DNA from: a virus
IMG/VR virus record: IMGVR_UViG_3300028608_000007
Span: 62,001-126,000 of that record
Length of the DNA: 64,000 nt
Direction: 5' to 3' (one strand)
Numbering within the stretch: the first letter of the stretch is position 1; each line of letters starts with the position of its first letter. Under the pieces are notes generated by a model, which made no database searches, was not told the origin of the DNA, and saw nothing but the letters and a program-made list of their open reading frames with translations. Both the position numbers and the translations under genes were made by a program. Shown here piece by piece: positions 4,901 to 57,350 of the stretch.

Positions 4901-6986
<2,086 letters not shown>

Positions 6987-24653: not shown

Positions 24654-25973
24654 TTAAACGATGATGTGCGGGATGAAGCGTTCGTTCTTCCACGACAAAG
24701 TGGGCGATTCGAATTCACGAATGCACAGCGTTGCGGCAGTCGAGTCGAACATGTCATCACGGTCTTCCACTGCATCCGGCACCATGAACATACCGATGAT
24801 GAAGTTGTTGCGACCTTCAACCTGACCCGGTGGGCAGTACGCTTGGTAAACGCAGTCGTCGGTGTACGGACCTTCGGACTCGTGGACCAGTTCGTTCTCG
24901 TCACCGAACACCTTGACATTGGACGACATGCGACCAACCTTAGGCTTCTGTACGTACGACATACCCGAAGCAATGAAGTGGTCAGGCGTGGTGTAGGTAG
25001 CCAGAGTAGCTACGTCATCCCACTGGCAACCGTAACCCGCTGGGTCCGATTCACGCAGGTAGGTGATGTAGGCCCAGATACCTTTGTTCGAAGCGAACCA
25101 ACGCCAAGCAGGCTCGAGGAAGGTGACGTTGTTGGCCCAGTACTGCCAGTCTTGATAACCTTGCGGGAAGTTCTCAACCATCTCTTCCCACGGCGACAGG
25201 GCGAACACCACGTCCAGACGCTTGTCACCGATGCACCACGGTTTCTCACGACAAGCGTGATCGTAGTCGATGTCGGAGAAGTCAGCGAACAGGGTGGTGT
25301 TGTTCTGACCCAGAATCTGAGCCAGCGTTTCCGACGTCACCATGTCTTCGAAGCTGTCTTTCTCGAACAGGACGCCGATGTAGCCTGGTACCTGCCCCAT
25401 TTCTTCGAGTTCGTGGATCAGCGTATGCCAGAACATATTGAGCTGGTCTTCCTCGTCACCGGTGAACTGTTTGCACAGCTCGGTTTGGAGGTTGACCGAT
25501 TCGAACAACATGGTCGGGGTATCGCCATTGAACTCGTAGATACCTTTGACGGTTTCCGTCACTGGGTCGAATGCCGCATCGAAACGACCGTACAGCGACT
25601 GGCGAGCCGAAGTGTGGCTACGGAAGGTGTGCTTCGCGTAGTCGATGAAGAACGGGTGTTTGCGCAGGAAGTCGCAACCCATGAACTCCATGATGGTGCT
25701 ATGGGATTCATTGAACAGGCGACCTACTGCATCTACCAGTTGGGCGTAAGCACGCTCGAAATGCGTTTCCAGACCAGCGCACGATTCGTGCTTGATGGTG
25801 TAGAATGGCATCGCTTGCTGGTTGTCGAGGAAGTAACGGAAATAATCAGTTACGTCTTCTTTGAACGTCGCGTCGGCGATAGCGCCTTCACGATAGAAAC
25901 CTTGAGACCAAGGCAACTCTTCAACCATGATTTTGTTCAGGTTGAAGTCGATCTTCCTTTTCAGACATTGCAT
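24654..25973 (-). CDS. Glutathionylspermidine synthase-like ATP-grasp protein (YgiC type)
   Basis: The 439-residue protein matches the synthetase domain of the glutathionylspermidine synthase family, which forms amide bonds using ATP. Key signatures are YGRFDAAFD (128-136), IYEFNGDTPTMLFE (145-158), a late YVQKPKVGRMSSNVKV that provides ATP-binding residues, and a C-terminal IGMFMVPD. There is no N-terminal amidase domain, so it resembles E. coli YgiC/YjfC rather than bifunctional Gss. The gene directly upstream encodes a lipoprotein, the same order as ygiB-ygiC. The substrate is unknown; candidates are peptidoglycan-, polyamine- or envelope-related amines. Confidence 0.82.
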   Translation of the reverse strand: MQCLKRKIDFNLNKIMVEELPWSQGFYREGAIADATFKEDVTDYFRYFLDNQQAMPFYTIKHESCAGLETHFERAYAQLVDAVGRLFNESHSTIMEFMGCDFLRKHPFFIDYAKHTFRSHTSARQSLYGRFDAAFDPVTETVKGIYEFNGDTPTMLFESVNLQTELCKQFTGDEEDQLNMFWHTLIHELEEMGQVPGYIGVLFEKDSFEDMVTSETLAQILGQNNTTLFADFSDIDYDHACREKPWCIGDKRLDVVFALSPWEEMVENFPQGYQDWQYWANNVTFLEPAWRWFASNKGIWAYITYLRESDPAGYGCQWDDVATLATYTTPDHFIASGMSYVQKPKVGRMSSNVKVFGDENELVHESEGPYTDDCVYQAYCPPGQVEGRNNFIIGMFMVPDAVEDRDDMFDSTAATLCIREFESPTLSWKNERFIPHIIV

Positions 25974-30111: not shown

Positions 30112-31746
30112 TTAGTCGGAAGACGACGAGCTGCTATCGGAGCTGCTGGAACCGCCGGAATCACCACCACCGACGTCAGCATCGCGATGCGGCGCTGGGT
30201 CGTAACGGAATGGAGCTTCGTCAACGTGAGCGAACTCAGGTCGCTGACCGCGAGCGTAGACCTTGTCACCAGCAACGTTGTCACCGGAACCCGAGTGGGA
30301 CTGCTGGATGTTGCGCTCGTGTGCAGTAACTGCTGCGAGTTGCAGTTCAGGGTTCAGTTCGATCGGACGAGACAGACCACGACCGATTTCCGGGTTGTCG
30401 CCGTAGTTGACGTTCAGGCCACCGTCAGCACGACGCTCTACCGATTCTGGCAGACGGACTTCTTCATCGACTGGTTCTTCGTCCAGGTCATCCGGCAGGT
30501 CGCCGTCTTCTTCCTGCTCGAGTTCACAACCGTCTTCACCGGTTTCGATTTCAGGTTCGTCAACAGCCACCGGATCGCCTTTCAGCGCAGCCCACTGAGC
30601 ATTCACCTCTGCCTTGATGGCAGCGATGGTTTGATCAGGTGCAGGGTCGGCTGGGTCCAGCGCGATCACGATAGCCTTGCGGCCGTCGATCGGGTGGTTG
30701 ATGTAACCGTCGAAGAACGCCTTGCCTTCACGTTCGGTAACCAATTCACCGTCTTCGAGTTTCCAGTTCAGCAGATCGAATTGGCTCGATTCCAGGTAAG
30801 CGTTGGCCACTTCCAGCGACAGCGGTTGAGCAGGCTGTTGAGCAATACGCTCAGCTTCCAGACGAGTAGCCAGAGCGATATCGTCTTGCTCTTGGGCTTC
30901 GGCTGCTGCCTTGGCGCGTTCTTCAGCCGCCATGCGGATCAGGTTGTCAGCCAGGATGTACGACCAGCGTTCGAGGTTGAAGCCCGACGCAGGGTCAACG
31001 ATTTCTTCCAGCGTGTGCCAGCCGACAGTCAGCAGTTCAGCTTCACGGCACTCGACGTCGATGTGTGGAGGAACACCGATCGAGTAGACGATACCCAGGT
31101 GCTGTTGGCCCACTGCGTTGAAGTCGTCACGGATGAAGCCTTCTTGGGAGAAGGTGATCGCGGTGTCGCGTACCAGTTCCTGGAAGGTCTTGCCGCCCCA
31201 GATGAACTCTTCATCCAGTTCGTCGATCAGACTGGAGATCAGAGCTTCTTTGGCGTTCAGGGTCCAGTTCGGGTAGAAGCGCATGGACTGAGCTTCAGGG
31301 TGGCCACCACCGCCGATGGAGTGGTTACCGGCCAGCAGTTGTTCACCGACCTGCTTGGTGCGCTGGTAGATGAAGAACTCGATCTGGTTTTTGGCTTCGT
31401 TGTAACGGTGGATCAGGGCGTACGGAATCGGGTGACGGAAGAGGTTGGATTCTTCCAGGCGACGACGACGGGTGATCACAGCGTCCAGCTTGATGCGCTC
31501 GAAGCGCTCGGACAGCACGTCACGGGTGTGGTCGTTGTGGTACTCGAGACCTTGGACGGTAAACTCGGCGTCGATGGAGTCACGCCAGAAACCGATGACC
31601 ATGCGGTCTTTCGGATCGACTTCCTCATGACCGAACTCAACCGGCATTTGCAGGCTGATGTCTTCGGGAGTCATGTTGTGTGGATTCGGAGCAGTGGTCG
31701 GATCTACGGCTTCCATACCAGCATACTGGCTCAGAACGTTAGACAT
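30112..31746 (-). CDS. Nudix-like protein with long acidic C-terminal extension
   Basis: Residues about 80-240 resemble MutT/Nudix proteins of the COG4112 type: FFIYQRTKQVGEQLL, SIGGGGHPEAQ (143-153), ALISSLIDELDEEF (168-181) as a degenerate Nudix box, then GIVYSIGVPPHIDVECREAE. The usual R of the REXXEE motif is D here, so activity is uncertain. A second region of about 200 residues follows, then an acidic linker (LEQEEDGDLPDDLDEE) and a Ser/Asp tail. Nudix enzymes hydrolyse nucleoside diphosphates linked to other groups, including NADH and ADP-ribose. It is encoded beside the NAMPT/PRPP-synthetase pair. The start at 31746 has AAAAGGAA upstream. Confidence 0.68.
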   Translation of the reverse strand: MSNVLSQYAGMEAVDPTTAPNPHNMTPEDISLQMPVEFGHEEVDPKDRMVIGFWRDSIDAEFTVQGLEYHNDHTRDVLSERFERIKLDAVITRRRRLEESNLFRHPIPYALIHRYNEAKNQIEFFIYQRTKQVGEQLLAGNHSIGGGGHPEAQSMRFYPNWTLNAKEALISSLIDELDEEFIWGGKTFQELVRDTAITFSQEGFIRDDFNAVGQQHLGIVYSIGVPPHIDVECREAELLTVGWHTLEEIVDPASGFNLERWSYILADNLIRMAAEERAKAAAEAQEQDDIALATRLEAERIAQQPAQPLSLEVANAYLESSQFDLLNWKLEDGELVTEREGKAFFDGYINHPIDGRKAIVIALDPADPAPDQTIAAIKAEVNAQWAALKGDPVAVDEPEIETGEDGCELEQEEDGDLPDDLDEEPVDEEVRLPESVERRADGGLNVNYGDNPEIGRGLSRPIELNPELQLAAVTAHERNIQQSHSGSGDNVAGDKVYARGQRPEFAHVDEAPFRYDPAPHRDADVGGGDSGGSSSSDSSSSSSD

Positions 31747-31787
31747 GAAAGGTTCCTTTTCAGGTTTACGGTTATTACGACACAGGA

Positions 31788-32396
31788 TCACTCGACCCTG
31801 TTAGAAAATACTCGGAGAATGCGCTGACAGTAATCACAGTCACAATCGCCTTCGTGAGCACGACGTTCGTTCTCTTTGATCTCGGCCAGATAACGAGCAT
31901 CACGTTCCACACGAGCTTGCAGCACCTTGTTACGGATGCCGTCGAAGAACGCAGTCATCTCTTCGTCAGACACGGCTGGCTTGTAGCCGCACATGTCTTT
32001 GGCGTAACGGAACATACCCTCGATCAGCTCACGCATCTTGCGTTCCAGATCAGAAGGGAATCCGCCACGGAATTGAGACGGTGTGTTCAACGACCACTGC
32101 ACAGGAAGGTTCGGGTCGTCGTAATCGTGGATGGTAATCGACCAACGGTGGTCGTGGAAATCGTCACCCACTTTAAAGAAGAACACTACGTTGTTGCAAT
32201 CAGCATCGCCGTAGTAGTTGTAGTCATGGAACGGTTCGTAATACTTGCGTCCACGGAAACTGGTGGTGCGCAGTTCCAGCTTACCCCACGGCGTAGGGAC
32301 ACTCCACAGTAGATCACGAGGCAACGGAACTTTCCTGAGTCGGTCCAGTTGTTGAGCGTAGAAATGAAGTGTTGCACTACTTTCCGAGAAAGCCAT
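31788..32396 (-). CDS. Hypothetical protein, 202 residues
   Basis: The start at 32396 has GGAGG upstream. The product begins MAFSESSATLHFYAQQL and has a cluster DYNYYGDADCNNVVFFF, then HDHRW, and a C-terminal cysteine group (CDCDYC) after a charged helix. The cysteines and histidines could bind metal. No family is recognised. It lies between the NAMPT-like and Nudix-like genes on the same strand. Confidence 0.6.
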   Translation of the reverse strand: MAFSESSATLHFYAQQLDRLRKVPLPRDLLWSVPTPWGKLELRTTSFRGRKYYEPFHDYNYYGDADCNNVVFFFKVGDDFHDHRWSITIHDYDDPNLPVQWSLNTPSQFRGGFPSDLERKMRELIEGMFRYAKDMCGYKPAVSDEEMTAFFDGIRNKVLQARVERDARYLAEIKENERRAHEGDCDCDYCQRILRVFSNRVE

Positions 32397-32408: not shown

Positions 32409-32440
32409 CATAAAAGGCAGGCCAAAGCCTGCCTCTATGC
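32409..32440 (-). terminator. Hairpin terminator with TTTTATG end
   Basis: On the minus strand AGGCAGGC-TTTG-GCCTGCCT is followed by TTTATG. It follows the NAMPT-like gene. CATA...TATG arms extend the palindrome. Confidence 0.8.
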
Positions 32441-32446
32441 TGTTAC

Positions 32447-34405
32447 TTAGTAGGTGGCGCCGCCAAGGCGTTCACGCATTTCGCCCAGGGTAGTGCGCTT
32501 GGTGAAATGACCGTTGCGGTACACGGACTTCAACTCACCCGACGAAGTAGCCAGGGTATCGAACGACATGTCCTGCTCTTGAGCCAGAACGTAGTTGCCG
32601 TCAACCAGGTCTACACGCAGGAAGCCTTTGGCAGACTTCTTCGCGGTTTCGCCTTCGGTGGCTGGCGCTTTGTACAGGTCGATGAGGGTGTCGTCGATCT
32701 GGATCGCAGTGCCTTTGATAGCTTGGCCGAAGGTGTCGCGGGTGATGTACTGGTAGGTGTAGCTACCAATACCGAGGACAACGTTGCCGGAAGCGAACTG
32801 TTTCTTCGCCAGACGACGCATGATCTCTTCGGTACGTTGCACAGTGATGCTGTCACCGTAGATCAGGCCGATGTGTTCGTCCAGCAGACGGTAGCCTTCT
32901 GGAGTAGTGGTACCACCGAAGGTTTCCCACAGGCATTCCACAGCGCCTTTCTCTTCCGAGGTCAGCTCGTGAGCGACGATGTGGTAACCGCACTGGTAGC
33001 GACCGGTCAGATCGTATTCCAGTTCGATCTCCATCGACTTGAGGAAGCCGTAGATCATTGGCTTCACTGGGTCGTGGGTTTCCATTGGCAGACGCTCAGG
33101 CGACAGCTTACGGGTAGTAGTAGTCATGGCCTGGAAGGACTCAACCACCGAACGACCAGCACGTTCGAGGATGTCGGCGTCCAGTTCGTCCCACGAACGG
33201 TTGCGATTACGGTGCAGCGCATCGGTAGCCTTGAACAGCGTACCATCGGAGTTGCGGAAGTAGATGTGCTTGCGACGACCGTCATCACGACCACGGCGGT
33301 ACATCATCTGCTCAGCTTCTTCCTGGGTGAAGATCTCAGCACCACAGATGATCTCAACCGGATCACCCGAGTCGGGACGGATCACGACTTTGGCCAGACC
33401 GAGGCTGTCTTTCGGACGCGACAGAATCACGTCTTTCAGTTCAGGAACGATCTTGGTCACGACGCCCCAGAAGTCGAACGAGTCCGACACCAAAGCCACA
33501 GCACCGTTCGGGTAGACCTCGGTGATCAGACGCTTGAAGAAGCGCTTCTCGGCTTCCAGGCGCATGCGCTTGTAGCCTTCCTCGTCAACCTTCTGGTCGT
33601 TCTCACGCAGCTTCTCCAGCTCGTAGTGCAGCTCGGAGAGGATGTTGGCCGTAGCAACGGCGTGTTCGGTAGCTGGAATCGAGCAGGCCACGAACTCCTT
33701 CTCTACGTTCGCGCCGTAGTAGTCTTCGGCGTAGTCGATCGCAGGGATGGTGTCAGTGCCGCAGAAGGCCAGCAGGTGACCGAACGAACCGCGAACGTCT
33801 TCCAGACCGATACCACGGAACGAGAAGTCGTGACCCTGGACGTCGACGAACTCTTTCGGAGTACCGGTGATCAACGCCCAGTGTTTCAGGACGCGACGGT
33901 ATTCGAAAGCGATGGTCGAACAGGTGACGATTTTCCAGATCAACGACGACATCGAGGTTTCGAGGTAGTTCGTGAACCAGTAGAAGTCGGGGTGGGTGTT
34001 GTAGATGGTGTACAGCGGTACGTTCATGTTGACACGCGCACCTTCCGGCAACGCCAGCACTTCGATCGGCAGGTAGCCCAGGTCGTGCAGGGCTTCGAAG
34101 CCGTCGACAGGCACTTTACCTTCACCGAGGTAGTTGTCCATGCGACGCTTGTAGCGCTTGATGACTTCGTCTTTCGGCTTGGAGAAGAAGCTGCGATCCC
34201 ACAGTTCAGTCAGCTCTTGCAGGACGCCTTGCAGACCAGCCCAGACGACCTTCGAATCCCAGAACTGAGACTTCGACACAGACTTCTGGAACAGACGGTC
34301 AGCACGAGCCGTCAGGTTACCGTAGGTGAAGTTCGCCCCGACGGGGAACATTGGACGGTGGCCAACTTTGTAACCATCAGCAACGTTAGGTGCAAACAGG
34401 TTCAT
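32447..34405 (-). CDS. Nicotinamide phosphoribosyltransferase-like (NAMPT/Namat) protein
   Basis: The protein matches the NAMPT family, which joins nicotinamide to a pyrophosphorylated ribose. Signatures are GHDFSFRG (191-198), IPATEHAVA with the catalytic-type His248, VSDSFDFW (306-313), VIRPDSGDP (341-349), GDSI (517-520) and LGIGSYTYQ (544-552). It has 652 residues, against about 490 in human NAMPT. An insertion of about 130 residues lies between PDSGDP and GDSI. The start at 34405 has AAGGAC upstream and overlaps the PRPP-synthetase-like stop (ATGA), so the two are coupled. In NARP1 anti-defence systems the equivalent protein, Namat, uses ADPR-pyrophosphate to regenerate NAD+ directly. 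Which substrate is used here cannot be read from sequence. Confidence 0.9.
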   Translation of the reverse strand: MNLFAPNVADGYKVGHRPMFPVGANFTYGNLTARADRLFQKSVSKSQFWDSKVVWAGLQGVLQELTELWDRSFFSKPKDEVIKRYKRRMDNYLGEGKVPVDGFEALHDLGYLPIEVLALPEGARVNMNVPLYTIYNTHPDFYWFTNYLETSMSSLIWKIVTCSTIAFEYRRVLKHWALITGTPKEFVDVQGHDFSFRGIGLEDVRGSFGHLLAFCGTDTIPAIDYAEDYYGANVEKEFVACSIPATEHAVATANILSELHYELEKLRENDQKVDEEGYKRMRLEAEKRFFKRLITEVYPNGAVALVSDSFDFWGVVTKIVPELKDVILSRPKDSLGLAKVVIRPDSGDPVEIICGAEIFTQEEAEQMMYRRGRDDGRRKHIYFRNSDGTLFKATDALHRNRNRSWDELDADILERAGRSVVESFQAMTTTTRKLSPERLPMETHDPVKPMIYGFLKSMEIELEYDLTGRYQCGYHIVAHELTSEEKGAVECLWETFGGTTTPEGYRLLDEHIGLIYGDSITVQRTEEIMRRLAKKQFASGNVVLGIGSYTYQYITRDTFGQAIKGTAIQIDDTLIDLYKAPATEGETAKKSAKGFLRVDLVDGNYVLAQEQDMSFDTLATSSGELKSVYRNGHFTKRTTLGEMRERLGGATY

Positions 34406-35313
34406 GCGTAAAGTCCTTGTACAGGGTGCCAGTAGATTTTGTCGTCGTTGACTTCGTCGGGACGTTTGTTGTACGCCGCCTGAGGGTGCCACGAGTTGGT
34501 GGTACGAATCTGGTCGTAGTGACTACGCAGTTGAGCGTAACCTTTGGTGAACAGACCGTGAGTGACGAACAGCTCGAGAGAGCAGTAGTCATTGTCGCCG
34601 CTCACACGCATGTAGTCCGCCTCGAAAGGCTGGAGCTTCTCACGCAGAGCTTTGGCCAGCTCGATGAAGGTGTAGCCGCCGTCGCAGATGTCGTCAACAA
34701 CCAACCAGGTCAGACGAGGGGTCGGTTCAAACGGGATGTCTACACTGGTGCCAACGATCTTGCCGGTTTCGACGTCACGGTGTTTGGAACCGTAAGCGAT
34801 ACGAGTAACACCAACCAAACGGGCCAGTTCTTCAACCTTCTTCACCGCCCCAGCGTCAGGCGATACCAGCACCACACGTTCCCAGACTTGACGATCCAGC
34901 TTGGCAACGATCTGCGGCAAGGTGATGTGAGTCAAACGATCCAGCAGCGCAGCACCTACGTCACTGTGGATGTCGAGGACGGTTACGGTGTTGTAGCGCT
35001 GGAGGTTGATGATGTCGCAGAACGGCTTGATGGTCAGCGACTCACCTGAACGTGGTACACGGTCTTGACGAGCGTACGGCAGGTAAGGCATGAACAAGTG
35101 GATCTCGAGGGCTGGGTTCAGCCGACGGATCGCATCAGTGACCATGACGAGGTCCATGATGTCCACTGCGTTCTTGAGGTGAGCAGTCAGGTTGACCGCT
35201 TTCCAACTTGCTACAGCAGGGTCGACGTACGGATGCACTTCACCGCCCGGCAACACTTTCGAGTTAGCGGGAAACGAGATGTTCACGTCTCCGCGATTGC
35301 TAATCAAAATCAT
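34402..35313 (-). CDS. Ribose-phosphate pyrophosphokinase-like (Prs/Adps) protein
   Basis: The 303-residue protein matches PRPP synthetase. It has the ATP-binding MPYLPYARQDRV (75-86), VLDIHSD (112-118), the pyrophosphate loop VSPDAGAVKK (150-159) and the PRPP signature VVDDICDGGYT (205-215). Prs transfers pyrophosphate from ATP to ribose-5-phosphate. In NARP1 the related enzyme Adps pyrophosphorylates ADP-ribose instead, supplying Namat. The 4-base overlap with the NAMPT-like gene strongly suggests the two act in sequence. The start at 35313 follows AAAAGGAAG. The upstream stretch holds a terminator and possibly its own promoter. Confidence 0.9.
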   Translation of the reverse strand: MILISNRGDVNISFPANSKVLPGGEVHPYVDPAVASWKAVNLTAHLKNAVDIMDLVMVTDAIRRLNPALEIHLFMPYLPYARQDRVPRSGESLTIKPFCDIINLQRYNTVTVLDIHSDVGAALLDRLTHITLPQIVAKLDRQVWERVVLVSPDAGAVKKVEELARLVGVTRIAYGSKHRDVETGKIVGTSVDIPFEPTPRLTWLVVDDICDGGYTFIELAKALREKLQPFEADYMRVSGDNDYCSLELFVTHGLFTKGYAQLRSHYDQIRTTNSWHPQAAYNKRPDEVNDDKIYWHPVQGLYA

Positions 35314-38039: not shown

Positions 38040-38636
38040 TTACGCTGCCCTTTTCAATTCGTTGCCATATTGGTCAACCAATGCATGAGCCTTTGCAAGC
38101 CCTTCATCGGTGTAAAGGTTGATACGTTTCGGGATACCAGCACGAATCGCCATCTGTAGCGCCATGTTAGTTCCACCTTTGACCACTTCAGTTTTGCCCA
38201 CTGGTTTAGCCCAGTAGATTATTGCACGGACTGGATCATTCAACATGTGTCCGTGAATCTGGAACACGTTGCGAGTGTGCATGGCTTTTGCCCCACGCTT
38301 ACACTTATCCCACGCAGGATGAACCTCTGATGCCATGCTGTGCGCAGTCTCCCAAGTAGGGAACTTCGTAGCATCGTAAAAGAAGTTCTTGGGGTCATGG
38401 TAACGATCCCACACCCCATCCCACGCCAGATAGATCCTAGCCTTCAAATCAAAATACCAACGGCTTTGTAGCGCTCCCTCATAGAACGCTCTGTCAGCAC
38501 CTTCGGCATCCCCACTACTCAAGGCGTAACCCTGAGCATAAAGCGCTAAACTAATTTGCCGCATTAACGCCAGAATGTCTTCCGGCGTTTCACGACTCCC
38601 CACTCCTGCAAACCACCCCCGGAAGATTGGTGGCAT
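38040..38636 (-). CDS. SLOG/DprA-like Rossmann-type protein
   Basis: The 198-residue product starts with FAGVGSRETPEDILALMRQ (residues 9-27), has YALSSGDAEGADRAF (37-51), and later KGGTNMALQMAIRAG. These glycine-rich turns match the SLOG superfamily, which includes DprA, LOG and TRPM/ThsA-type nucleotide sensors. Members in phages are usually annotated as DprA-like. SLOG domains bind nucleotides or NAD-derived molecules; catalysis here is unproven. It is the first gene of a tightly packed unit with unknown neighbours. Confidence 0.65.
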   Translation of the reverse strand: MPPIFRGWFAGVGSRETPEDILALMRQISLALYAQGYALSSGDAEGADRAFYEGALQSRWYFDLKARIYLAWDGVWDRYHDPKNFFYDATKFPTWETAHSMASEVHPAWDKCKRGAKAMHTRNVFQIHGHMLNDPVRAIIYWAKPVGKTEVVKGGTNMALQMAIRAGIPKRINLYTDEGLAKAHALVDQYGNELKRAA

Positions 38637-46721: not shown

Positions 46722-47516
46722 ATGAACCTCTTACCGGGATCGTCCGAAGCTGCGCTGCTCGAACTCGTCAATCAGGCCAACAGTCTGGCTCAACCCCTAG
46801 AAGTAGGGGACTTGTACTTCGGCAAAGTCAAGACTTTGTCAGGCGGGCTGGTTGAGATCCCTGCTGTAACGATGTATGACAGCGCGTATGAGGGCTACGT
46901 CAAGTTCCGCTACCAGCGCCTGAGTCTCGCCAAAGCGTTCGGTACTATCCGTCCACAACTGCGCGACATCGGTTACCCAACCCTCCACCAACTGTTACCT
47001 GTCATCAACAAAAAGCTTGGGATCAACCTTGAGCCTGTTGATGTGGTCGATGTCCAATTCGACTGGCTGGGTAACAACGAACAACTGAACATCCAGATTA
47101 CCGCAACGGCGAACTCACTGGGTTACGAAGGCTCCTTCATTGTGACCTTTACTCGTGTTCGCCCGATGTTGAACAAGGTAGTGGCCGCTACTACCCTGGA
47201 TGTGTTGAAGCACCACACTACCCCAGTGACTGGTACGCTGGCGCTGGCTATGGCCACCTACTCGATCGACTTCACCGACGAGAAGAATTCGCTACCGATC
47301 TACGCACCCTACAGATACTGGGCCAACATTGGCGCAACGCGGACTCTCTTGGCCAGCTACGGTTTCCCAAACTGGCCTCAGGCACAAATCGGTACGCTCA
47401 AGTGGGGGCTGACTTCTAGTTTCCCCGAAGCGAATCAAAGTTTCAAGAACGTGATCATCCACCCCAACCCGAATATTGCGGGCTACACGGGTGACGCTTA
47501 CCTCCATTACAACTGA
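46722..47516 (+). CDS. Array protein B (three-part)
   Basis: The 264-residue protein starts at ATG 46722 after CAGGAG. It has the two half-modules (ending in SAYEGYVKFRYQRL and NSLGYEGSFIVTFTR) plus a third, C-terminal part of about 90 residues that ends in GYTGDAYLHYN. The third part also contains a FTD segment and an aromatic stretch. The same order occurs in C, D, E, F and H. It probably works in the virion with the other array members. Confidence 0.68.
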   Translation: MNLLPGSSEAALLELVNQANSLAQPLEVGDLYFGKVKTLSGGLVEIPAVTMYDSAYEGYVKFRYQRLSLAKAFGTIRPQLRDIGYPTLHQLLPVINKKLGINLEPVDVVDVQFDWLGNNEQLNIQITATANSLGYEGSFIVTFTRVRPMLNKVVAATTLDVLKHHTTPVTGTLALAMATYSIDFTDEKNSLPIYAPYRYWANIGATRTLLASYGFPNWPQAQIGTLKWGLTSSFPEANQSFKNVIIHPNPNIAGYTGDAYLHYN

Positions 47517-47533
47517 TCCTTAGAGGTGTCGCA

Positions 47534-48367
47534 ATGGCTCTTTATAAGACACCGAAGGCTGCGATCATTGGTTCGATCAAAGCGTTGAACGGTGGCGTGA
47601 CTCTGATCGAGTCCGAATACGTCTTCGGTAACCCGGTTCCGGTAGCTCCTGCAAGCGACGGCACCAACACCACCATCCTGATCTCTGCCAAGGACGCATC
47701 CAGTACCTTTGACGGATCAGTGACGGTTCGCTACACCCGACTGGATCTGGCTGACTTACTCAAACTGGTTCCAGCGTCCCTGAGTCTCCCACCGGTCACT
47801 ACCGTTTGGGAATTTGCTCAAGCCTTCAACAAAACTTACGGTACAGCATTCGAACAAGGTGACTTGGTCGACGGTCCGTTGAACTTGGCCAGCGGTACTG
47901 GTGTGGTGACGTTAACCGCACAAACCAACTCGTATGGTTGGACAGGTACAGTAGAGTTCACTGTGCAACCTGGTCGTTTCCAGATGAACCAACTGGTAAC
48001 GGTCACCACGTTGCCTGGTTTGAACTTCCCTGATCCTTACGAGGGTAAACCCTTCGGCTGGGCTTACAGTTACTGGCGAGACTTCTCTCCGCTGGAACCT
48101 GTGTTGTCATCCATCGTTGTTGAGTCGGTGGACTGGGAAAGTATTGCTCAGGCAATCACTACCCTGACTAACGACCCATGGGTAATCACTGGTCAGAATC
48201 GTTTCTCGTTGAGCGGTGCGACTCTGGAGTACAACGGACTGACTACCGGAACTGAACAAGCCAACTCGGACTACGAGAGCGTGATGATTATCCGGCTGGG
48301 TGCTGACTGCTTGGGCTACAGTGGTCGTCTGTTCCTCCACTACACTCCGGCTGAGACCGACATCTAA
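47534..48367 (+). CDS. Array protein C (three-part)
   Basis: The 277-residue protein begins MALYKTPKAAIIGSIKAL after GAGGTG. The half-modules end in STFDGSVTVRYTRLDL and NSYGWTGTVEFTV; the C-terminal part contains VTTLPGLNFPDPY, a WRDFS segment and ends in GYSGRLFLHYTP. It is 10 bases upstream of D. The function is not known. Confidence 0.68.
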   Translation: MALYKTPKAAIIGSIKALNGGVTLIESEYVFGNPVPVAPASDGTNTTILISAKDASSTFDGSVTVRYTRLDLADLLKLVPASLSLPPVTTVWEFAQAFNKTYGTAFEQGDLVDGPLNLASGTGVVTLTAQTNSYGWTGTVEFTVQPGRFQMNQLVTVTTLPGLNFPDPYEGKPFGWAYSYWRDFSPLEPVLSSIVVESVDWESIAQAITTLTNDPWVITGQNRFSLSGATLEYNGLTTGTEQANSDYESVMIIRLGADCLGYSGRLFLHYTPAETDI

Positions 48368-48377
48368 GAGGTGATCT

Positions 48378-49154
48378 ATGGATTCCAAAGAGAAACTCTT
48401 GGACCTGATCAACGACCTCAACCAACCACAACGCGAACTGAATGACATCAACGTTCGGTTCACTGGGATTGTACCAGCAGACGAGTCGGGTGCAACAGTC
48501 CTGACTGTCGCTGGTGTTCCAGGACGTGGTTATTCTGGTCAAGTTGATCTGACGTACAGTCGTCTCAACCTCACTGAGATTCTGGACGGTAAGACGGTTC
48601 GTACCCCTGACCCCCAAACCCCCGATTCATTCTTGGAGTTGGTGAACAACGCTTACAATCTCTTCCTGACGGCGATTGACGTCGGAGAGATCACCATCCC
48701 AGAGTTGGGTGAAGGTGAGTACGCGCAGTTGACTCTGGAAGCGAGTCCTGACTCGTTGGGTTTCGTTGGTGTTGCGACTGTCCGGTTTGAGTTCGGTAAG
48801 TCATGGTTAGAGCAGGTGATCGGTAACCGTAACCTGCAAGAGCTGACTCATCCGGTGAAAGTTGACTACCGAATGTCTGCCCGGATGGTAACGTGGAACA
48901 AGGACTTCACTTGTGTCCGGGACGCCATGGCTCTGACCAAGACCCGAGAGTATACCAACTGGCCGGTGATTCAAGCGGCTGCTACTTACATGGGCATCCC
49001 TGCTTGGTCTCCGCATTACCTCGTGGACAAAGCGACTTCGGAAGTTCCCGACGCTAACCCTGAGTTTGATCGTGTGGTGATTCAGGCTGTTCACGATAAC
49101 TCCAAACTCTTGGGTCCGATCTATCTCCACTACAACGTCCTCGAAGAGATTTAG
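48378..49154 (+). CDS. Array protein D (three-part)
   Basis: The 258-residue protein begins MDSKEKLLDLINDLNQP. Half-modules end in RGYSGQVDLTYSRLNL and DSLGFVGVATVRF; the C-terminal part has the usual WNKDFTCV segment and ends in LGPIYLHYNVL. The stop is 2 bases before the start of E. Confidence 0.68.
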   Translation: MDSKEKLLDLINDLNQPQRELNDINVRFTGIVPADESGATVLTVAGVPGRGYSGQVDLTYSRLNLTEILDGKTVRTPDPQTPDSFLELVNNAYNLFLTAIDVGEITIPELGEGEYAQLTLEASPDSLGFVGVATVRFEFGKSWLEQVIGNRNLQELTHPVKVDYRMSARMVTWNKDFTCVRDAMALTKTREYTNWPVIQAAATYMGIPAWSPHYLVDKATSEVPDANPEFDRVVIQAVHDNSKLLGPIYLHYNVLEEI

Positions 49155-49156
49155 TA

Positions 49157-50113
49157 ATGGCCATTTATAAGTTTCCCCCGAAACAAGAGGTTTACGACCT
49201 CATTAACCAGGCGAACCCTGGTTTGACCAAACCGCTGACGGCAACCAACTGTGTGCTGGCAAACCCGGTGGTGATCGCTAACGCTGTGTACCCTGCATCG
49301 AACTCCTCGATCGTGGTATCCCCAGCACCAGGTAACAACGACTACATCGGCAAACAAACGCTGAAGTACAACCGTCGCGACCTGTCCAAGATGTTCCGTG
49401 GTATTACGGTACTGGTCAAGAAGTACGCAGCACGCAACCCGGTTACTGCTGGTCAACTGGCTTTCACCATCTTTGAACTGTTGCCTGACATCAACCGCCT
49501 GTACGGTCTGAACCTGACTGAGGATGACGTCAACACCGGTAATATCCTGCGTGGCTCTACGCTGGAGAATGGTCAGTACACCACCACCGTGACGGTCACC
49601 ACCAAAGCAACCTCTTTGGGCTACATTGGTTCCTTCGCTCTGAAGTGGCTCAACACCCCACAGAGTTTTGTGGACATGATCACCAGTCTGGATCTGGATG
49701 GTCGTAAGTTCCCAGGTGGTAACGTGTTCGATGAAACGCATCTTCCGATCCTGTCGGGTGAAGCGTATCGACTAGACTTCACGCAGACGCTGATCACGGC
49801 CGGGTACACACCACCGGTGTTCGCAAAATCAAACTTCTCGTGGAACTCTACGTGGATCAACGTCTATGCGGCGTTGACAGCAGCGATCAACGCGGTCTCC
49901 GGTGGCCGTACTAACCTGCGCGGTTACGTGGCTGGGGAGAACTACAAAACTCACCCAGGTAGCATTGTGGGAATGCAACACCAGTGTGTCAGTCTCCCTA
50001 GTACCGAGTTCCCTCAACTCAACAGCCGTTTCTATAACCGCTGCTTGATCGTCTTTGTACCAGATGATTGTCCGTGGGCGGCGGGACACATTATCCACCA
50101 CTTCAACGTTTGA
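49157..50113 (+). CDS. Array protein E (three-part)
   Basis: The 318-residue protein begins MAIYKFPPKQEVYDLIN. The half-modules end in NDYIGKQTLKYNRRDL and TSLGYIGSFALKW; the C-terminal part is longer than in B-D and ends in AAGHIIHHFNV. It is the largest three-part member apart from H. Codon use looks like that of its neighbours. Confidence 0.68.
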   Translation: MAIYKFPPKQEVYDLINQANPGLTKPLTATNCVLANPVVIANAVYPASNSSIVVSPAPGNNDYIGKQTLKYNRRDLSKMFRGITVLVKKYAARNPVTAGQLAFTIFELLPDINRLYGLNLTEDDVNTGNILRGSTLENGQYTTTVTVTTKATSLGYIGSFALKWLNTPQSFVDMITSLDLDGRKFPGGNVFDETHLPILSGEAYRLDFTQTLITAGYTPPVFAKSNFSWNSTWINVYAALTAAINAVSGGRTNLRGYVAGENYKTHPGSIVGMQHQCVSLPSTEFPQLNSRFYNRCLIVFVPDDCPWAAGHIIHHFNV

Positions 50114-50123
50114 GGACTAGGCT

Positions 50124-51005
50124 ATGTCAGCTTACATGCAAGAATCGAAGCGTAGCCTTCTCAACTACATCAACGCCAAGAACGCTACCACGTTGGCCAT
50201 GACCGATGTGGAATTCAGCGCCCCATCGGTAATCAACGGGACGTGGCGCGGCGTGGCAAACCCGCATAACACTGCGGTACGTTTGACGGCTTCTGCTACC
50301 AGCATCTACCAAGGCACTGTTGTGGTGACGTACGACCGACTGGACCTCAAAGAGATCATCAAGATCGGTGGGTTCACGTTGCGTGCCGACCACCCAACCA
50401 GCGCACACCAATTGATGGATACGCTGGCTACTTATAACGGACTGAACTTTACCACTGACGACATTGAAGACAGTCCCGTTACCGACAACGGCAATGGTAC
50501 CTACACCGTAACCTTGACTGCAAAGCCAGGTTCTTACGGTTGGGTTGGTAGTGTCACCATCGAGAACTTTGGTCAAGGTGGTGCTCCTCTGGACCGCGTG
50601 CTGTCTGCTAACGACATGCCTGGTTTGAACTACCCAACCAGTTCGGATGCCGACGTGTACGGTGCCCTGTACCTGTACTCCTACGACTTCACCGATTTCT
50701 ACGATCTGTTGTTAGATCTGGAAGAAGGTGTACCTCTGACTGGACAACAGGCTGTAGACCTCGCCGCTGCGATCAACCTGTACGACGTGTCGACCGGTGC
50801 AGGTGCATGGAACGCTTCTTCCGAACAAGCAGCGTGGTCCCTACAAGGTGCGGTGCCGTTCTTCAACGGACTCAACACTCCTGAGTTGCTGACCAACAGC
50901 AACTACAAATACGCTCTGCTCTTGGATCTGCGTCCAGGTGTCACCATGCCGAAAGGTCGGATGGCCCTGCACTACAACGATCCGATTGATAGCGGTTCCG
51001 TCTGA
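50124..51005 (+). CDS. Array protein F (three-part)
   Basis: The 293-residue protein begins MSAYMQESKRSLLNYIN after GAGGAC. Half-modules end in SIYQGTVVVTYDRLDL and GSYGWVGSVTIENF; the C-terminal part contains a SYDFTDFYDLL segment and ends in KGRMALHYNDP. A terminator-like hairpin follows before the next gene. Confidence 0.68.
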   Translation: MSAYMQESKRSLLNYINAKNATTLAMTDVEFSAPSVINGTWRGVANPHNTAVRLTASATSIYQGTVVVTYDRLDLKEIIKIGGFTLRADHPTSAHQLMDTLATYNGLNFTTDDIEDSPVTDNGNGTYTVTLTAKPGSYGWVGSVTIENFGQGGAPLDRVLSANDMPGLNYPTSSDADVYGALYLYSYDFTDFYDLLLDLEEGVPLTGQQAVDLAAAINLYDVSTGAGAWNASSEQAAWSLQGAVPFFNGLNTPELLTNSNYKYALLLDLRPGVTMPKGRMALHYNDPIDSGSV

Positions 51006-51008
51006 CGC

Positions 51009-51031
51009 ATGGGCCTTCGGGCCCTTTTAGG
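51009..51031 (+). terminator. Terminator-like hairpin overlapping the next ribosome binding site
   Basis: GGGCC-TTCG-GGCCC is followed by TTTT and then AGGAG, the ribosome binding site of the next gene. The T-tract is short, so some read-through is likely. Confidence 0.6.
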
Positions 51032-51039
51032 AGATCCTT

Positions 51040-52068
51040 ATGTTAAGGGCTGCTATTGGTTTCGAACACTGCGTCAAGAACGTAGTGGATACTTGGATGG
51101 CACAATCTGGTTGGGCCATCACGCGTCACCCTCTTTTCCCGACTTATGGTAAAGGATTGATCGTCAACAACGATGGATGGCTGACCGTTCCAGAAGGCAT
51201 TGCGCCAGGATCAGAGTCGTACGCACACATCGACTTACGCCCACTGTTGGACAATAGCGGTAGAGCTACGGCAATCGCATTTGGTTATCGAGCCAAGTTG
51301 GTGAAACCGGCTGTTGCTGGTTTGGGTAACCTGTGTTTGTGGGGTTCAAACCCAAGCACTACGGGCACTCACGCACTGGCAACCTTTGCCAACTTGTTTC
51401 CTGCTGGTAGTCCAGAAGGAACCGAGTGCCTGGTTGAGATTGTGCTCGATCTGGTTTCGACCTATCGCTACACCTACGTCAACGGAGTGATGTTAGGTTC
51501 CGCCATCTACAACGGACTCAGCACCGCGCTTATCAAAACCGGTGACTTCGGCATCTATTGGTCACCGTGTCCTGCCAACACCGCAGGCTATGTGGCAATC
51601 CGTGATATCTGGGTAACCGACGATCTACCCGGTGACGGTATGTCGGGTCGTTTGGGCGACATGAAAGTCCGTCCGTTGACCCTGACATCGGCAGTGGGTA
51701 ATGGTTGGGCTGCCTCTGATGGTGGTTCTCTGTTGGCTGCTCTGACTGCCCCGACTGACAAGGTCAATCCGGCGTTGGTTGAATCTAGCCTCGGCGCTGG
51801 AACCCTGGATTTGAAGTTTTCTTCAGCGCTTCCAAACAACGATGCAGTGCAAGCTATCCAATTAATCCTCAACGCAAAGGGTAGCAGCAACAACGCTGCG
51901 GCCGATGTGTCGATGGAACGTAATGGGATTGTTTCGCCCAAACGTCGCACTCAATTGGACCTTGCCTTGAAAGGGCGATCCATGCGGACGTGGCCATTAG
52001 CACCGGACGGCAGTCGCTGGTCCAACGCCAACTTGGCTGAGACCACGATTAAAATCACTCCAGAGTAA
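51040..52068 (+). CDS. Second-family protein G
   Basis: The 342-residue protein begins MLRAAIGFEHCVKNVVD and does not have the half-modules. It resembles the proteins at 53,930 and 55,000: a region rich in beta strands with IAFGYRAKL and YRYTYVNGVMLG, then GDGMSGRLGDMKVRPL near residue 195, WAAS, and a C-terminal segment ending in NANLAETTIKITP. This looks like a jelly-roll or lectin-like domain. It may be a virion surface or receptor-binding protein. No signal peptide is present. Confidence 0.62.
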   Translation: MLRAAIGFEHCVKNVVDTWMAQSGWAITRHPLFPTYGKGLIVNNDGWLTVPEGIAPGSESYAHIDLRPLLDNSGRATAIAFGYRAKLVKPAVAGLGNLCLWGSNPSTTGTHALATFANLFPAGSPEGTECLVEIVLDLVSTYRYTYVNGVMLGSAIYNGLSTALIKTGDFGIYWSPCPANTAGYVAIRDIWVTDDLPGDGMSGRLGDMKVRPLTLTSAVGNGWAASDGGSLLAALTAPTDKVNPALVESSLGAGTLDLKFSSALPNNDAVQAIQLILNAKGSSNNAAADVSMERNGIVSPKRRTQLDLALKGRSMRTWPLAPDGSRWSNANLAETTIKITPE

Positions 52069-52074
52069 TTGTCA

Positions 52075-53079
52075 ATGACCACTATCCGTAGCCTTCCGGC
52101 ATACGCGTTAAGTCGGTCAGCGGGTCGGACGCAAGCGCGTAGTGTCTTCGGGTATGCTCTCGTAGATACCAGTGGGAAACTACCGCGTCCGGCTGGCGAC
52201 ACAGACTATCGCAAGCCCGAGCAGACGCTGCTCAAAGAACTGATCGTACAGGCCAACCCTGATGCTTTCACAAACATTGACCCCAATCAAATTGCCTACG
52301 AGGCGCCAGTTGCACTGCCTTATACTCGGGGCGATGAGTCAAACACCACCATCGTTGCTAAGGCTGCACCGAATGCTCTGGATGTGGTCGGTCGTCAGAC
52401 TCTACGATACCGTCGGATCGACCTGTCCAAACTGTTCCGCTACCAGACCATTGAGCTGACCCGCTACAGTAACGTGAATACCTTGCCTTGGGCTGAGGTT
52501 CAGGAACTGCTGCTCAAGCAACATGGCATCAACGTTTCCTCCAGCACGTTTACTCCAGTTACTCTGAACGTGAACGCCACTACCACGCTCACCGCGTTGG
52601 CTACGTCCCAGTGTTACATAGGGGCGATTGCAGTAGTGTGGCGTAAAGGACGTCGAGAGATCAGTGAAATGTTCTCAACCGCTACCTTAGACGGGCGAGC
52701 GTGGCCAGAAGGTTTGATTCAGTTCGGTGATACGTACAAACCACAAGGTGAGTACATCGCTTACGACTTTGACTTCACCGATCTCATGGGTACTTCTTTC
52801 AACTCCTGGGGTAACAACACCTTGACTTCGGGTCAGGCTGAATTGGATAAGTTAGCAGCGGTGTTAAACACTGTTGCTCCTCAGTACAATTGGAACAGTC
52901 TTGACTATTCCGTGGACAACGTGGGTGGCTTGAAGAACCTGTTATTCAACCGTTACGCTATTCCAAACGCAGCGGTACCCGAAGCCAACAGCGGACTGTT
53001 TAACCGAGTGGCAGTTTTGGCTCCCACTATTGGGGACGCTTGGTTCTATGGTAAACTGTTGTTCCACTACAAGGTGTAA
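52075..53079 (+). CDS. Array protein H (N-terminal YAL repeats plus three-part body)
   Basis: The ATG at 52075 is preferred over an in-frame TTG six bases earlier; the ribosome binding site is weak. The N-terminus has two repeat-like units (IRSLPAYALSRS, ARSVFGYALVDT), also seen in protein M. The body has half-modules ending in DVVGRQTLRYRRIDL and QCYIGAIAVVW, and a C-terminal part with YDFDFTDLM that ends in YGKLLFHYKV. It is 334 residues long. Confidence 0.65.
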   Translation: MTTIRSLPAYALSRSAGRTQARSVFGYALVDTSGKLPRPAGDTDYRKPEQTLLKELIVQANPDAFTNIDPNQIAYEAPVALPYTRGDESNTTIVAKAAPNALDVVGRQTLRYRRIDLSKLFRYQTIELTRYSNVNTLPWAEVQELLLKQHGINVSSSTFTPVTLNVNATTTLTALATSQCYIGAIAVVWRKGRREISEMFSTATLDGRAWPEGLIQFGDTYKPQGEYIAYDFDFTDLMGTSFNSWGNNTLTSGQAELDKLAAVLNTVAPQYNWNSLDYSVDNVGGLKNLLFNRYAIPNAAVPEANSGLFNRVAVLAPTIGDAWFYGKLLFHYKV

Positions 53080-53082
53080 GCC

Positions 53083-53574
53083 ATGTCTATTTACAACGAT
53101 TCACGTTTGGACGTGTTGGCATGGTTTAACAAAAAAGCTGGCACCAAGTTCACCCTTGATGACGTGATCTTCAGTAAGCCCATTGTCAACACCGACCCTG
53201 GAGCTACACTGAATTCCAAGATCCGCGTCACCATGGCCCGGACCAACACGGCGTATAAAGGGACGGTCGTACTAGCCTACAACCGTCTCACCTTGGCCAA
53301 TATCGGGAACTACCCGCGTCCTAAGTATCCGCCCCAAGCACCGGTCGGATCTTCTGTATACGACTTGTTACCCAAGCTGCGCAACACTTACGGCATCTAC
53401 CTCACTCGGGACGATCTCGAAGAAACCTTCGTCACTGATGATGGGGCGTACGGGCGAATTTTACTCAAGGCGAAAGCAGACTCCATAGGTTGGAATGGCG
53501 AGTACACCTTGGTGCTCTCCTCGAAGATTCCATTGGCCGATCTGTTCAAAACCAAATCCATTAACTGGAGTTAA
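53083..53574 (+). CDS. Array protein I (half-modules only, partner of J)
   Basis: The 163-residue protein begins MSIYNDSRLDVLAWFNK and ends just after the second half-module (SIGWNGEYTLVL...FKTKSINWS). The C-terminal part found in B-F and H is missing, but the next gene encodes exactly that part. The stop is followed after 3 bases by the start of J. It therefore looks like one half of a split three-part gene. Confidence 0.65.
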   Translation: MSIYNDSRLDVLAWFNKKAGTKFTLDDVIFSKPIVNTDPGATLNSKIRVTMARTNTAYKGTVVLAYNRLTLANIGNYPRPKYPPQAPVGSSVYDLLPKLRNTYGIYLTRDDLEETFVTDDGAYGRILLKAKADSIGWNGEYTLVLSSKIPLADLFKTKSINWS

Positions 53575-53577
53575 GAC

Positions 53578-53928
53578 ATGCCTATCATCGATCCGTACTG
53601 GGCAAATTATTTCTTCCGTCTGGCTCTGACTGGTTACGATGACATTCTCTCGGACTTCAAAACCGGAGACATCATCACCCCGGAAACTGGCGAGTTGTTA
53701 GCGCTGGCGCTGAACGAGAAAGACAAGAAAGAAGGCAAGGGCCAATGGCACAGTGAAGTGGAACTACCCGAGTGGTCCCTCGCTGGTTGCTTTGTGTTCT
53801 TCCACGGTGACAACAACACCGGTCTGCCAACCAAAGGCAACATGCAGAAAGTGTTGATCCTGGACTTCCCGGAAGAATCCGTGAAGCCAGTAGGTCGCAT
53901 CTTCCTGACTTACAACGTGGGAGGTTGA
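53578..53928 (+). CDS. Array protein J (detached C-terminal part)
   Basis: The 116-residue protein begins MPIIDPYWANYFFRLAL after GGAG. It corresponds to the third part of the three-part array proteins: an aromatic YFFRLALTGY in place of the FTD segment, a WHSEV...WSL stretch, and the ending VGRIFLTYNVGG. It has no half-modules of its own. Separate translation with I would restore a full protein as a complex. Confidence 0.65.
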   Translation: MPIIDPYWANYFFRLALTGYDDILSDFKTGDIITPETGELLALALNEKDKKEGKGQWHSEVELPEWSLAGCFVFFHGDNNTGLPTKGNMQKVLILDFPEESVKPVGRIFLTYNVGG

Positions 53929-53929
53929 G

Positions 53930-54988
53930 ATGGCCCTTCGTGATATTGAACCCTTCCTGAACCTCTCACACCAGTATTCGGCAACTATCGGACAGGGCTA
54001 TACTGCTGTCCTGTCGGGCTGGAACATTCCGTACTTGGTGTACGGTGGGGACACTAACAGTTACGCTCGCGTAACCTCTTTGGACCTTATTGATGGATGG
54101 TTGGTCCTGAGTAGTATTGGTTCAGTTTCGGGTAACCGTTGCATGGCGGTCGGACGACCCTTGCAGTCTGCCGGTATCAACGTAGACGATAACACCGTAG
54201 CTTTCGGTGGTGCTCGGTTGAAGTTTGCCCGTTCCATTCCTCGAACCGTGATGACCATACAAGGTGCGGCGGCGGTGGAAGTTATTGCCTCCACCGCGAT
54301 TGCTGGTAACTTCCAACTCAATACTGAGTACTACGTTGAGTGGTGTATCGACATGGCGAACAGCTTATTCAGGGCGCGGGTCGATGGTGTGGAAGTTGCT
54401 GCGGTAGCACTGTCAGCGGCGGTCAAGAACGCTCTGAAAGCAGGTACCAACTACCTGATGTGGGGAACCTATAACTCCGGCAGTAGCAGTGCGTTGGAGC
54501 TGTGGCTCAAAGACGGTTACGTTCTTGAGAAAACCCCAGATGGTCAAATGTCTGGCTGGTTAGGTCCACAGACTGTCAAGGTGTTGCCGGTTTCGGAATT
54601 CAACGGTCCTTGGGCTGCGAGTTCGGGAACGCCAAAAGATGTCTTGAACACCCCGACTACCAGTGCGGCTGACCGGTTGACGCCTTTGGTAACCACTGAT
54701 GTTAATGCGTCGGAAGCCATCCTGAAGTTCGATGCGTCTCAGGTGACTGGTTTCATCAAGGGGATTTCGCTCAACGTGGCGATGCAAAAGGCGCCAGGCA
54801 AATTAGGTAACTTAGAATCGTCGATCACCTCCGCAGGCGTCGAGAGTAGCAAGTCGTCTGCCACGGCCGCAAACGCCATGGCGATGTATACCCGACAGTT
54901 ACTCTCTAGCAAAGCACCTAACGGCGGTGCTTGGACTATCGAGAGTCTTGCTGCTGCAACCGTCAAACTCAAACCCGTCAATAGTTAA
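53930..54988 (+). CDS. Second-family protein K
   Basis: The 352-residue protein begins MALRDIEPFLNLSHQYS after GGGAGG. It shares with G and L a beta-rich N-terminal region, a DGQMSGWLGPQTVKVLPV segment near residue 205, WAAS, and a C-terminal segment ending in IESLAAATVKLKPV. It starts 1 base after J. A lectin-like or receptor-binding domain is possible but unproven. Confidence 0.62.
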   Translation: MALRDIEPFLNLSHQYSATIGQGYTAVLSGWNIPYLVYGGDTNSYARVTSLDLIDGWLVLSSIGSVSGNRCMAVGRPLQSAGINVDDNTVAFGGARLKFARSIPRTVMTIQGAAAVEVIASTAIAGNFQLNTEYYVEWCIDMANSLFRARVDGVEVAAVALSAAVKNALKAGTNYLMWGTYNSGSSSALELWLKDGYVLEKTPDGQMSGWLGPQTVKVLPVSEFNGPWAASSGTPKDVLNTPTTSAADRLTPLVTTDVNASEAILKFDASQVTGFIKGISLNVAMQKAPGKLGNLESSITSAGVESSKSSATAANAMAMYTRQLLSSKAPNGGAWTIESLAAATVKLKPVNS

Positions 54989-54999
54989 AGGGGGCTACC

Positions 55000-56106
55000 A
55001 TGGCCAAAGAAGTAAGACCGATTGGTATCGAACACCTCGATGACTGGTTCGGTAACCCACGGGTAGGTGCGGGGTTCTTGCATACCGGTTGGGACATGTA
55101 CACCGTTAAGCAAGGTGCCCACCAATTGATGTCAATCTTTAAGAAAGACGCTCAATTGCGCTATGGCTTGATGGCGGCAGGAACCAACGGATCGGCCGAG
55201 GGGATGGTTCAGATTCTTAACCGAACGCTGTGGGCCAACCGTAGTGACATCGCAAAAGCGTGTATTGGTTTCCGGTATAAACCAGGTAACCGTACGCCCT
55301 CAGCGGCTATCCCGATTGGCATGAAGCTCGATCGGGTAACTGGGGATGGGGGGGCTAGTGCCGATAACGTCATTTACACTTTCCCAACGACCCAGGGTGA
55401 GGCCTATTTCGAAATTGAAATCATCCCCTACGACGGTGTGGCCGGGTATGGTTTTACCGTCTACCGTGATGGAGACCAGATTGCCACGGCTGCAATGGGC
55501 TCTTGGTTCACTCGAGCAGCTTGGCCTGCCTGCCAGTTTGCCATTGGTAGTGCTACGTTGGTGCACGCCGCGCAGGTTAATGGTTGGCTACAGGGCGATT
55601 ACATGTTCTCGTGGGAGGACATGTATGTGGCTTGGACTACGGACCAAACTGAGAAAATCCGTTTGGGACCAATTCGTGTGAAGCGGCTACCGTACGAACA
55701 AGTAGACTTATCAAACTGGACGGCTCAGGGTGGTAAAACTGCTCTGGATATTCTGAACCTTACGAACAACAGTGCTAATAAGCGCACCGATTATCTGTCC
55801 AGCGACCCTGCCAACAGCGTACTTAAGTGCAAGTTGGATCTCTCGGGTCTTAAGTCCAGTGATCAGGTGTTGGCTCTCAGCGCTATTACGTCCGCGTGGC
55901 GCGATGGTGGCACCGTGGGCAATCTGAACGTTCGTTGGGATCACACTGATGGTCAAAGTGCTGCTTCCGCTTACACTCCTACCAGCGACGTGTATACACA
56001 GCAATTCGATAAGCAGGTACCAGTTCTAACCCAAACCCCAGGTGGAGCTGCTCTCACCAAAGCCTCCATGGCCGCACTGGAGCTGGTGGTCACTCCTAGC
56101 GCGTAG
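55000..56106 (+). CDS. Second-family protein L
   Basis: The 368-residue protein begins MAKEVRPIGIEHLDDWF after AAAGGGGG. It shares the general layout of G and K: a beta-rich first half (YGFTVYRDGDQIATAAMG), IRLGPIRVKRLPYEQVDLS near residue 225, a WTAQGGKTALDILN stretch, and the C-terminal LTKASMAALELVVTP. Similarity to G and K is weaker than between those two. Confidence 0.6.
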   Translation: MAKEVRPIGIEHLDDWFGNPRVGAGFLHTGWDMYTVKQGAHQLMSIFKKDAQLRYGLMAAGTNGSAEGMVQILNRTLWANRSDIAKACIGFRYKPGNRTPSAAIPIGMKLDRVTGDGGASADNVIYTFPTTQGEAYFEIEIIPYDGVAGYGFTVYRDGDQIATAAMGSWFTRAAWPACQFAIGSATLVHAAQVNGWLQGDYMFSWEDMYVAWTTDQTEKIRLGPIRVKRLPYEQVDLSNWTAQGGKTALDILNLTNNSANKRTDYLSSDPANSVLKCKLDLSGLKSSDQVLALSAITSAWRDGGTVGNLNVRWDHTDGQSAASAYTPTSDVYTQQFDKQVPVLTQTPGGAALTKASMAALELVVTPSA

Positions 56107-56113
56107 GTGAACT

Positions 56114-56866: not shown

Positions 56867-56867
56867 C

Positions 56868-56898
56868 GGCATAGAGGGAGGCCACCGCCTCCCCTTAT
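56868..56898. terminator. Bidirectional terminator with GCATA/TATGC arms
   Basis: GGCATAGAGGGAGGC-CACC-GCCTCCCCTTATGC forms a stem extended by the GCATA/TATGC arms between two convergent genes. Confidence 0.82.
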
Positions 56899-56900
56899 GC

Positions 56901-57350
56901 TCAGAGCTTACGGATCGTCAGATCCACGGCGCCCAGGTAAACCCAGCTACCGTCTTTGGCCAGCAGTTGCAGCGTCTTGCTTTCGCCAGCAGCCGTTGGT
57001 AACACCGCACCGGTTTCGAACTCCAACTCACCAGCGATCAGTTTGTAGCGATCAGCGATGAGGGTGATGATGCTCTGGAGTGTGTCACCCGTTTGCAGCG
57101 TGTAGGTGGTCGACTTGACGATCTCTTCGATATACAGACGACGGTAGTTCAGCGTCTGCGTACCGTAGAACTCGTTGTTCAGAGTTGCTTCCACCGTGAG
57201 GGACGAATTCTTCACGGTGATGTCGCCGCTGGTGTCAATCTGAAGCAGGTCCTTAAGGACGAAATCATCGAGAGTAAACGACGTGCCGTTGGTCTCGTTG
57301 ATCTGGTTGATGACGTTCTGAAGCGGGCTTAAAGTGTGATCAACTAGCAC
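56901..57350 (-). CDS. Array protein N (two half-modules, inverted)
   Basis: The only array member on the minus strand in this block. A GTG start at 57350 has AGGAG 8-9 bases upstream and gives a protein that begins at the same point as its paralogues; a longer frame to 57410 has no such site. Half-modules end in NEFYGTQTLNYRRLYI and GSWVYLGAVDLTI. It has 149 residues. Its inversion implies separate transcription from the rest of the array. Confidence 0.63.
   Translation of the reverse strand: MLVDHTLSPLQNVINQINETNGTSFTLDDFVLKDLLQIDTSGDITVKNSSLTVEATLNNEFYGTQTLNYRRLYIEEIVKSTTYTLQTGDTLQSIITLIADRYKLIAGELEFETGAVLPTAAGESKTLQLLAKDGSWVYLGAVDLTIRKL

Follow-up and report, generated by a model that had tools for sequence, protein, structure and literature searches.

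The question raised by this locus is whether two overlapping genes of a large phage, one resembling PRPP synthetase (Prs) and the other NAMPT, encode a NARP1 pathway for rebuilding NAD+ or ordinary nicotinamide salvage. The virus record is 180,543 bases long, and the window, i.e. the whole stretch of DNA analyzed here (64,000 nucleotides), corresponds to its positions 62001-126000. Positions given below refer to window numbering, and the parts of the record beyond the window were searched family by family.

Architecture and linkage of the gene pair

The two genes are arranged head to tail on the minus strand, with adps upstream of namat. The locus comprises the following features, with the basis of each assignment in brackets:

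34402-35313, minus strand: adps, predicted ADP-ribose pyrophosphate synthetase with a Prs-like fold, 303 aa (clade, diagnostic residues, phrog_619, AlphaFold)
34666-34695, minus strand: sugar-phosphate loop DDICDGGYTF of adps, residues 207-216 (Prs consensus DDxxDT(A/G)GT)
34402-34405, minus strand: overlap of the adps stop and the namat start, ATGA, 4 bases (sequence)
32447-34405, minus strand: namat, predicted nicotinamide ADP-ribose transferase, NAMPT-like, 652 aa (clamp and catalytic residues, structure match, phrog_448)
32948-33340, minus strand: lineage-specific insert of Namat, residues 356-486 (length comparison; partly low pLDDT)
32735-32767, minus strand: selectivity-clamp helix motif GSYTYQYITRD of Namat, residues 547-557 (motif defined in PMC12774641)
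35380-35404, minus strand: intrinsic terminator upstream of adps (terminator scan)
32415-32434, minus strand: terminator-like hairpin downstream of namat (read from sequence)

The sequence bears out the original prediction of two genes that overlap by ATGA and form a cassette between two terminators. The start codon of namat is the ATG at 34405, and a mechanical ORF call of 681 aa merely begins further upstream. An AAGGA-type Shine-Dalgarno sequence precedes the start of each gene. On the 5' side of adps, the terminator scan found a strong terminator with a 10-bp stem and a U-run (35404-35380). On the 3' side of namat, a GC-rich hairpin with an 8-bp stem, AGGCAGGC-TTTG-GCCTGCCT-TTTAT (32434-32415), was read from the sequence; it is absent from the scan output because the T-run rule missed it.

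Both proteins match known families (E < 1e-26), and the two genes are linked in the same order far beyond this phage. Of 82 related viral loci, 77 carry both genes on one strand with Adps preceding Namat, and in three of the five exceptions the Namat ORF is cut off at the edge of the locus. The same order was found in 78 of 80 bacterial loci. Thus, the arrangement is not due to chance. The four-base ATGA overlap recurs in the relative L017, and purifying selection acts on both genes, as comparison with L017 gave dN/dS values of 0.10 (Adps) and 0.17 (Namat). In addition, Prs-like and NAMPT-like proteins match different halves of a single profile, PHROG 12872, which points to putative natural fusions. 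All bacterial genomes checked (14 of 14) carry a separate full-strength Prs besides Adps, and the bacterial Adps is therefore no stand-in for Prs.

Two neighboring genes had also been noted in the original prediction. An NAD-dependent DNA ligase is indeed encoded at 4900-6975 (PF01653, E 1.3e-76) but lies about 25 kb from the pair, and as a distant and ordinary enzyme it was discounted as support for NARP1. The presumed Nudix-like neighbor did not hold up: the 559-aa protein at 30112-31791 (minus strand) has no Pfam match, and no NUDIX match was obtained in the whole record. This protein matches only phrog_8902, a family of unknown function, apart from a weak, below-cut-off match to GapS6a at its C-terminal end, and its GGGGH...DELDEEF stretch resembles a Nudix box only loosely. 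The record gave no match to NADAR and none to RyR (RyDEP), although the RyR search did not match in any control genome either. Other genes of the window include a DprA/SLOG-like gene at 38040-38636 (minus strand; phrog_768, E 2.9e-56), and a DprA-like gene is also located near NARP1 in the Pseudomonas phages pf16 and PAK_P4. A glutathionylspermidine-synthase-like ATP-grasp protein is encoded at 24654-25973 (minus strand; PF03738, E 6e-39). At 46722-57991, a run of ORFs (plus strand, with one on the minus strand), many of which have similar N-termini such as LLxLINxxN...LTxxDV/I, possibly encodes repeated structural or tail proteins of one family.

Family assignment of the two proteins

The first protein matched the model of canonical PRPP synthetase, TIGR01251, with 95.9 bits, which is below the curated cut-off of 113, and the phage family phrog_619 with 247 bits. 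An Adps HMM that had been built without the protein from the window gave 240 bits, compared to 64 bits for a Prs model. The original prediction had set a grouping with ribose-5-phosphate-specific enzymes against its own reading. A maximum-likelihood tree (67 proteins) instead placed the protein in one clade (support 99/97) apart from 16 genuine Prs, and its diagnostic residues are of the Adps type. The Adps side of this tree comprised proteins from phages, viral contigs and NARP1-linked bacterial loci, and the clade-mates included bacterial Adps, the Adps of one Felixounavirus, and the Adps of Bacillus phage SPbetaL1, which has been experimentally validated (PMC12774641). Of 18 alignment columns that are diagnostic for Adps versus Prs, 17 show the Adps residue in this protein and none shows the Prs residue; examples of the separating residues are HS, PDxGA, and DGGxTF.

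In Prs structures, the loop DDxxDT(A/G)GT holds the 5'-phosphate of ribose-5-phosphate. In the protein from the window this loop reads DDICDGGYTF, the most telling of the changes, at the site where the AMP moiety of ADP-ribose would presumably sit. Those Arg, Asp, His, and Lys residues that Adps and Prs share are retained, and in the FPGGE motif of the nucleotide site a Leu replaces the Phe found in nearly all Adps and Prs. The AlphaFold model (pLDDT 93.9) shows a PRPP-synthetase fold, and no Adps structure was among its best 50 PDB matches. By family, the first protein is an Adps, which is predicted to pyrophosphorylate ADP-ribose.

The second protein matched phrog_448 with 571 bits. It also matched the NadV-type model NF006629 with 438 bits (cut-off 405), a model that cannot separate Namat from NadV. 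A structure search with its AlphaFold model (pLDDT 89.5) retrieved the Namat crystal structures 9w5x and 9w5w first (E 2.4e-49), with HdNadV (3e-41) and then mammalian NAMPT (2e-35) at later ranks. The fold and the nicotinamide/ribose core are shared with both of these enzymes, and the NAMPT-like catalytic core is fully conserved (D13, Y15, F189, R192, D215, R306, D308, and the catalytic His). His248 of the EH motif is invariant across 80 homologues.

Unlike NAMPT, Namat possesses an adenine selectivity clamp, which consists of the helix motif GSX-phi-X-phi-X-phi-TRD and a stacking residue in the beta1-beta2 loop (PMC12774641). As marks of the clamp we used aromatic residues at positions 3 and 7 of the helix motif and Arg, Lys, or Tyr in the loop (R40 in SPbetaL1). 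The protein from the window has the helix motif GSYTYQYITRD, and its Arg37 aligns with R40 of SPbetaL1. HdNadV, a genuine NAMPT, nests among the Namats in the Namat tree, and Namat and NAMPT are thus not cleanly split by the tree alone. HdNadV nevertheless lacks the clamp, with the helix motif GAQTYQRNTRD in place of the aromatics and E in place of the loop Arg. Hence, Namat and NAMPT are told apart by the clamp, whereas the tree of Namats was not decisive. By family, the second protein is a Namat, with NAD+ synthesis from ADPR-PP and nicotinamide as its predicted reaction. The family assignment of both proteins is secure.

Relation to known NARP1 loci and the Namat insert

The characterized NARP1 of SPbetaL1 (Adps WIT26982.1, Namat WIT26983.1; PDB 9w5w, 9w5x) has the same gene order and a similarly tight coupling of the two genes (in locus L002, the end of adps at 2471 is the start of namat), and it shares the catalytic core, the adenine clamp, and the Prs-like first enzyme with the pair from the window. 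In contrast, sequence identity is only 26% for Adps and 47% for Namat, the Adps loop reads DGGYTF in the window and SFGGTF in SPbetaL1, and the window Namat carries two insertions. All SPbetaL1 NAD+ contacts that were checked are kept in the window Namat except for the substitutions A362S and F392Y. The genus Felixounavirus, to which Bas63 belongs (PMC8594841) and for which the Namat of Bas63 has been modelled (PMC12774641), encodes a NARP1 with the Adps loop DDICDGGxTF, the clamp motif, the same gene order, and a Namat insert at the same place. Its insert differs in sequence, however, its genes do not overlap, and identity is 31% for Adps and 38% for Namat. The nearest named relatives are the Pseudomonas phages pf16, PA1C, Viktualia, and PAK_P4, in which the genes are annotated as Prs and NAMPT and occur in the same order. 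Compared to the window, their identity is 36-40% for Adps and 43-58% for Namat, their Namat insert is shorter, and a small gene or a spacer separates the two genes.

The window Namat is longer than that of SPbetaL1 (652 versus 491 aa) because of its two insertions of 28 aa and about 120-130 aa. The larger insert (residues 356-486) comprises 131 residues, compared to 11-15 in the shortest homologues, and lies at the upper end of the lengths found in 80 relatives. Its length is 131-133 aa in L017 and the further relative L018 and similar in L024. The insert evolves faster than the core (omega of 0.35 versus 0.12), is modelled partly with low pLDDT, and had no match in a sequence search against the PDB. 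In L018, Namat is 87% identical to that of the window, whereas Adps (L018 3108-4001, compared with window 34402-35313) is only 47% identical; the adjoining 2.6 kb upstream are about 84% identical at the DNA level. The simplest reading would be that adps alone was replaced locally in L018 by a related homologue. We consider it quite unlikely that the insert is a functional add-on, which might for example hold Adps and channel ADPR-PP, or shield Namat from a host inhibitor, and equally that the separate swap in L018 would mean that the two enzymes are exchangeable modules.

Predicted function and alternative explanations

Together, the Adps clade, the Adps-type diagnostic residues, and the adenine clamp found only in Namat support the original NARP1 reading, and we regard it as highly probable that the pair is a NARP1 operon, carried by a large phage with Pseudomonas phages as its closest named relatives. 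The chemistry of Adps and Namat has been established for homologues (PMC12774641; PMC13232231), and homology with the NARP1 enzymes of SPbetaL1, Paenibacillus foliorum, and DyoEdafos is the basis on which we infer both catalytic activities and a role in counter-defence. Host NADase effectors of the TIR, SIR2, or SEFIR type would leave ADP-ribose and nicotinamide behind. Adps would move pyrophosphate from ATP onto ADP-ribose to form ADPR-PP, and Namat would exchange this pyrophosphate for nicotinamide, yielding NAD+ directly. Since ADP-ribose and nicotinamide are the leftovers of NADase defences, the phage could use the pair to rebuild NAD+ after such a defence has acted and complete its own cycle. 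The same NARP1 assignment has been made for the Pakpunavirus phage Adele, and during infection with the related NARP1 phage PaP1 NAD+ still drops (PMC12846349); protection may therefore be partial.

General annotation labels the pair Prs and NAMPT, and these names would fit a canonical nicotinamide salvage, in which an ordinary PRPP synthetase and an ordinary NAMPT make NMN, host enzymes complete NAD+, and the phage boosts NAD+ or nucleotide pools for replication. However, the tree and the diagnostic residues place the first protein with Adps and not with Prs, and the second protein has the adenine clamp. Moreover, no CTP_transf_like (NMN-adenylyltransferase-type) protein was found in the 180,543-base record, which may be a fragment, as its relatives are about 240 kb; this fits a putative direct two-step route. 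On the tree, the HMM scores, and the clamp residues, an ordinary Prs and NAMPT were rejected, and this explanation is highly improbable. Namat still makes NMN from PRPP in vitro (PMC12774641), and thus some PRPP-based salvage by the pair is possible.

Another explanation retains NARP1 and changes the source of its substrate: ADP-ribose would come mainly from ADP-ribosylated DNA or proteins through the phage's own DarG-like macro-domain protein, and the pathway would serve recycling after a DarT-type defence rather than after NADases. Macro-domain matches indeed occur in the record and in the records of its three closest relatives. In the record itself, the macro domain stands alone in an ORF of about 146 aa (L102 1426-1869, minus strand; G000:C1 around 149049-149354, outside the window), whose product might counteract DarT for the phage and thereby set ADP-ribose free. 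This product resembles the DarG antitoxin (NF048014, 118 bits; PDB 5m31, E 3e-27), although the match spans only a part of the DarG model and stays under the curated cut-off of 250 bits. A macro gene adjoins the NARP1 pair in other Pseudomonas phages (PMC12846349), but here it lies more than 50 kb away and thus has no operon link to the pair. As the documented targets of NARP1 are NADases, we consider a mainly DarT-related function unlikely, and the two roles would be compatible.

A NARP1 operon directed against NADase defences is thus the preferred reading, and the pair is a good new example of a system known from many phages, not a new kind. It leaves the understanding of the NARP1 pathway itself unchanged; minor new points are the lineage-specific Namat insert of about 130 aa and a relative in which only adps seems to have been replaced. 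With this locus, a lineage of large phages related to those of Pseudomonas gains a NARP1 example that is supported at the residue level. The locus also offers a diagnostic residue set for Adps (HS, PDxGA, DGGxTF), a family that was absent from the best 50 PDB matches, and shows that, at the sequence level, the published Namat clamp can tell NARP1 apart from salvage via PRPP, which whole-protein trees do not. For the phage itself, the pair very probably rebuilds cellular NAD+ that bacterial defences have destroyed.
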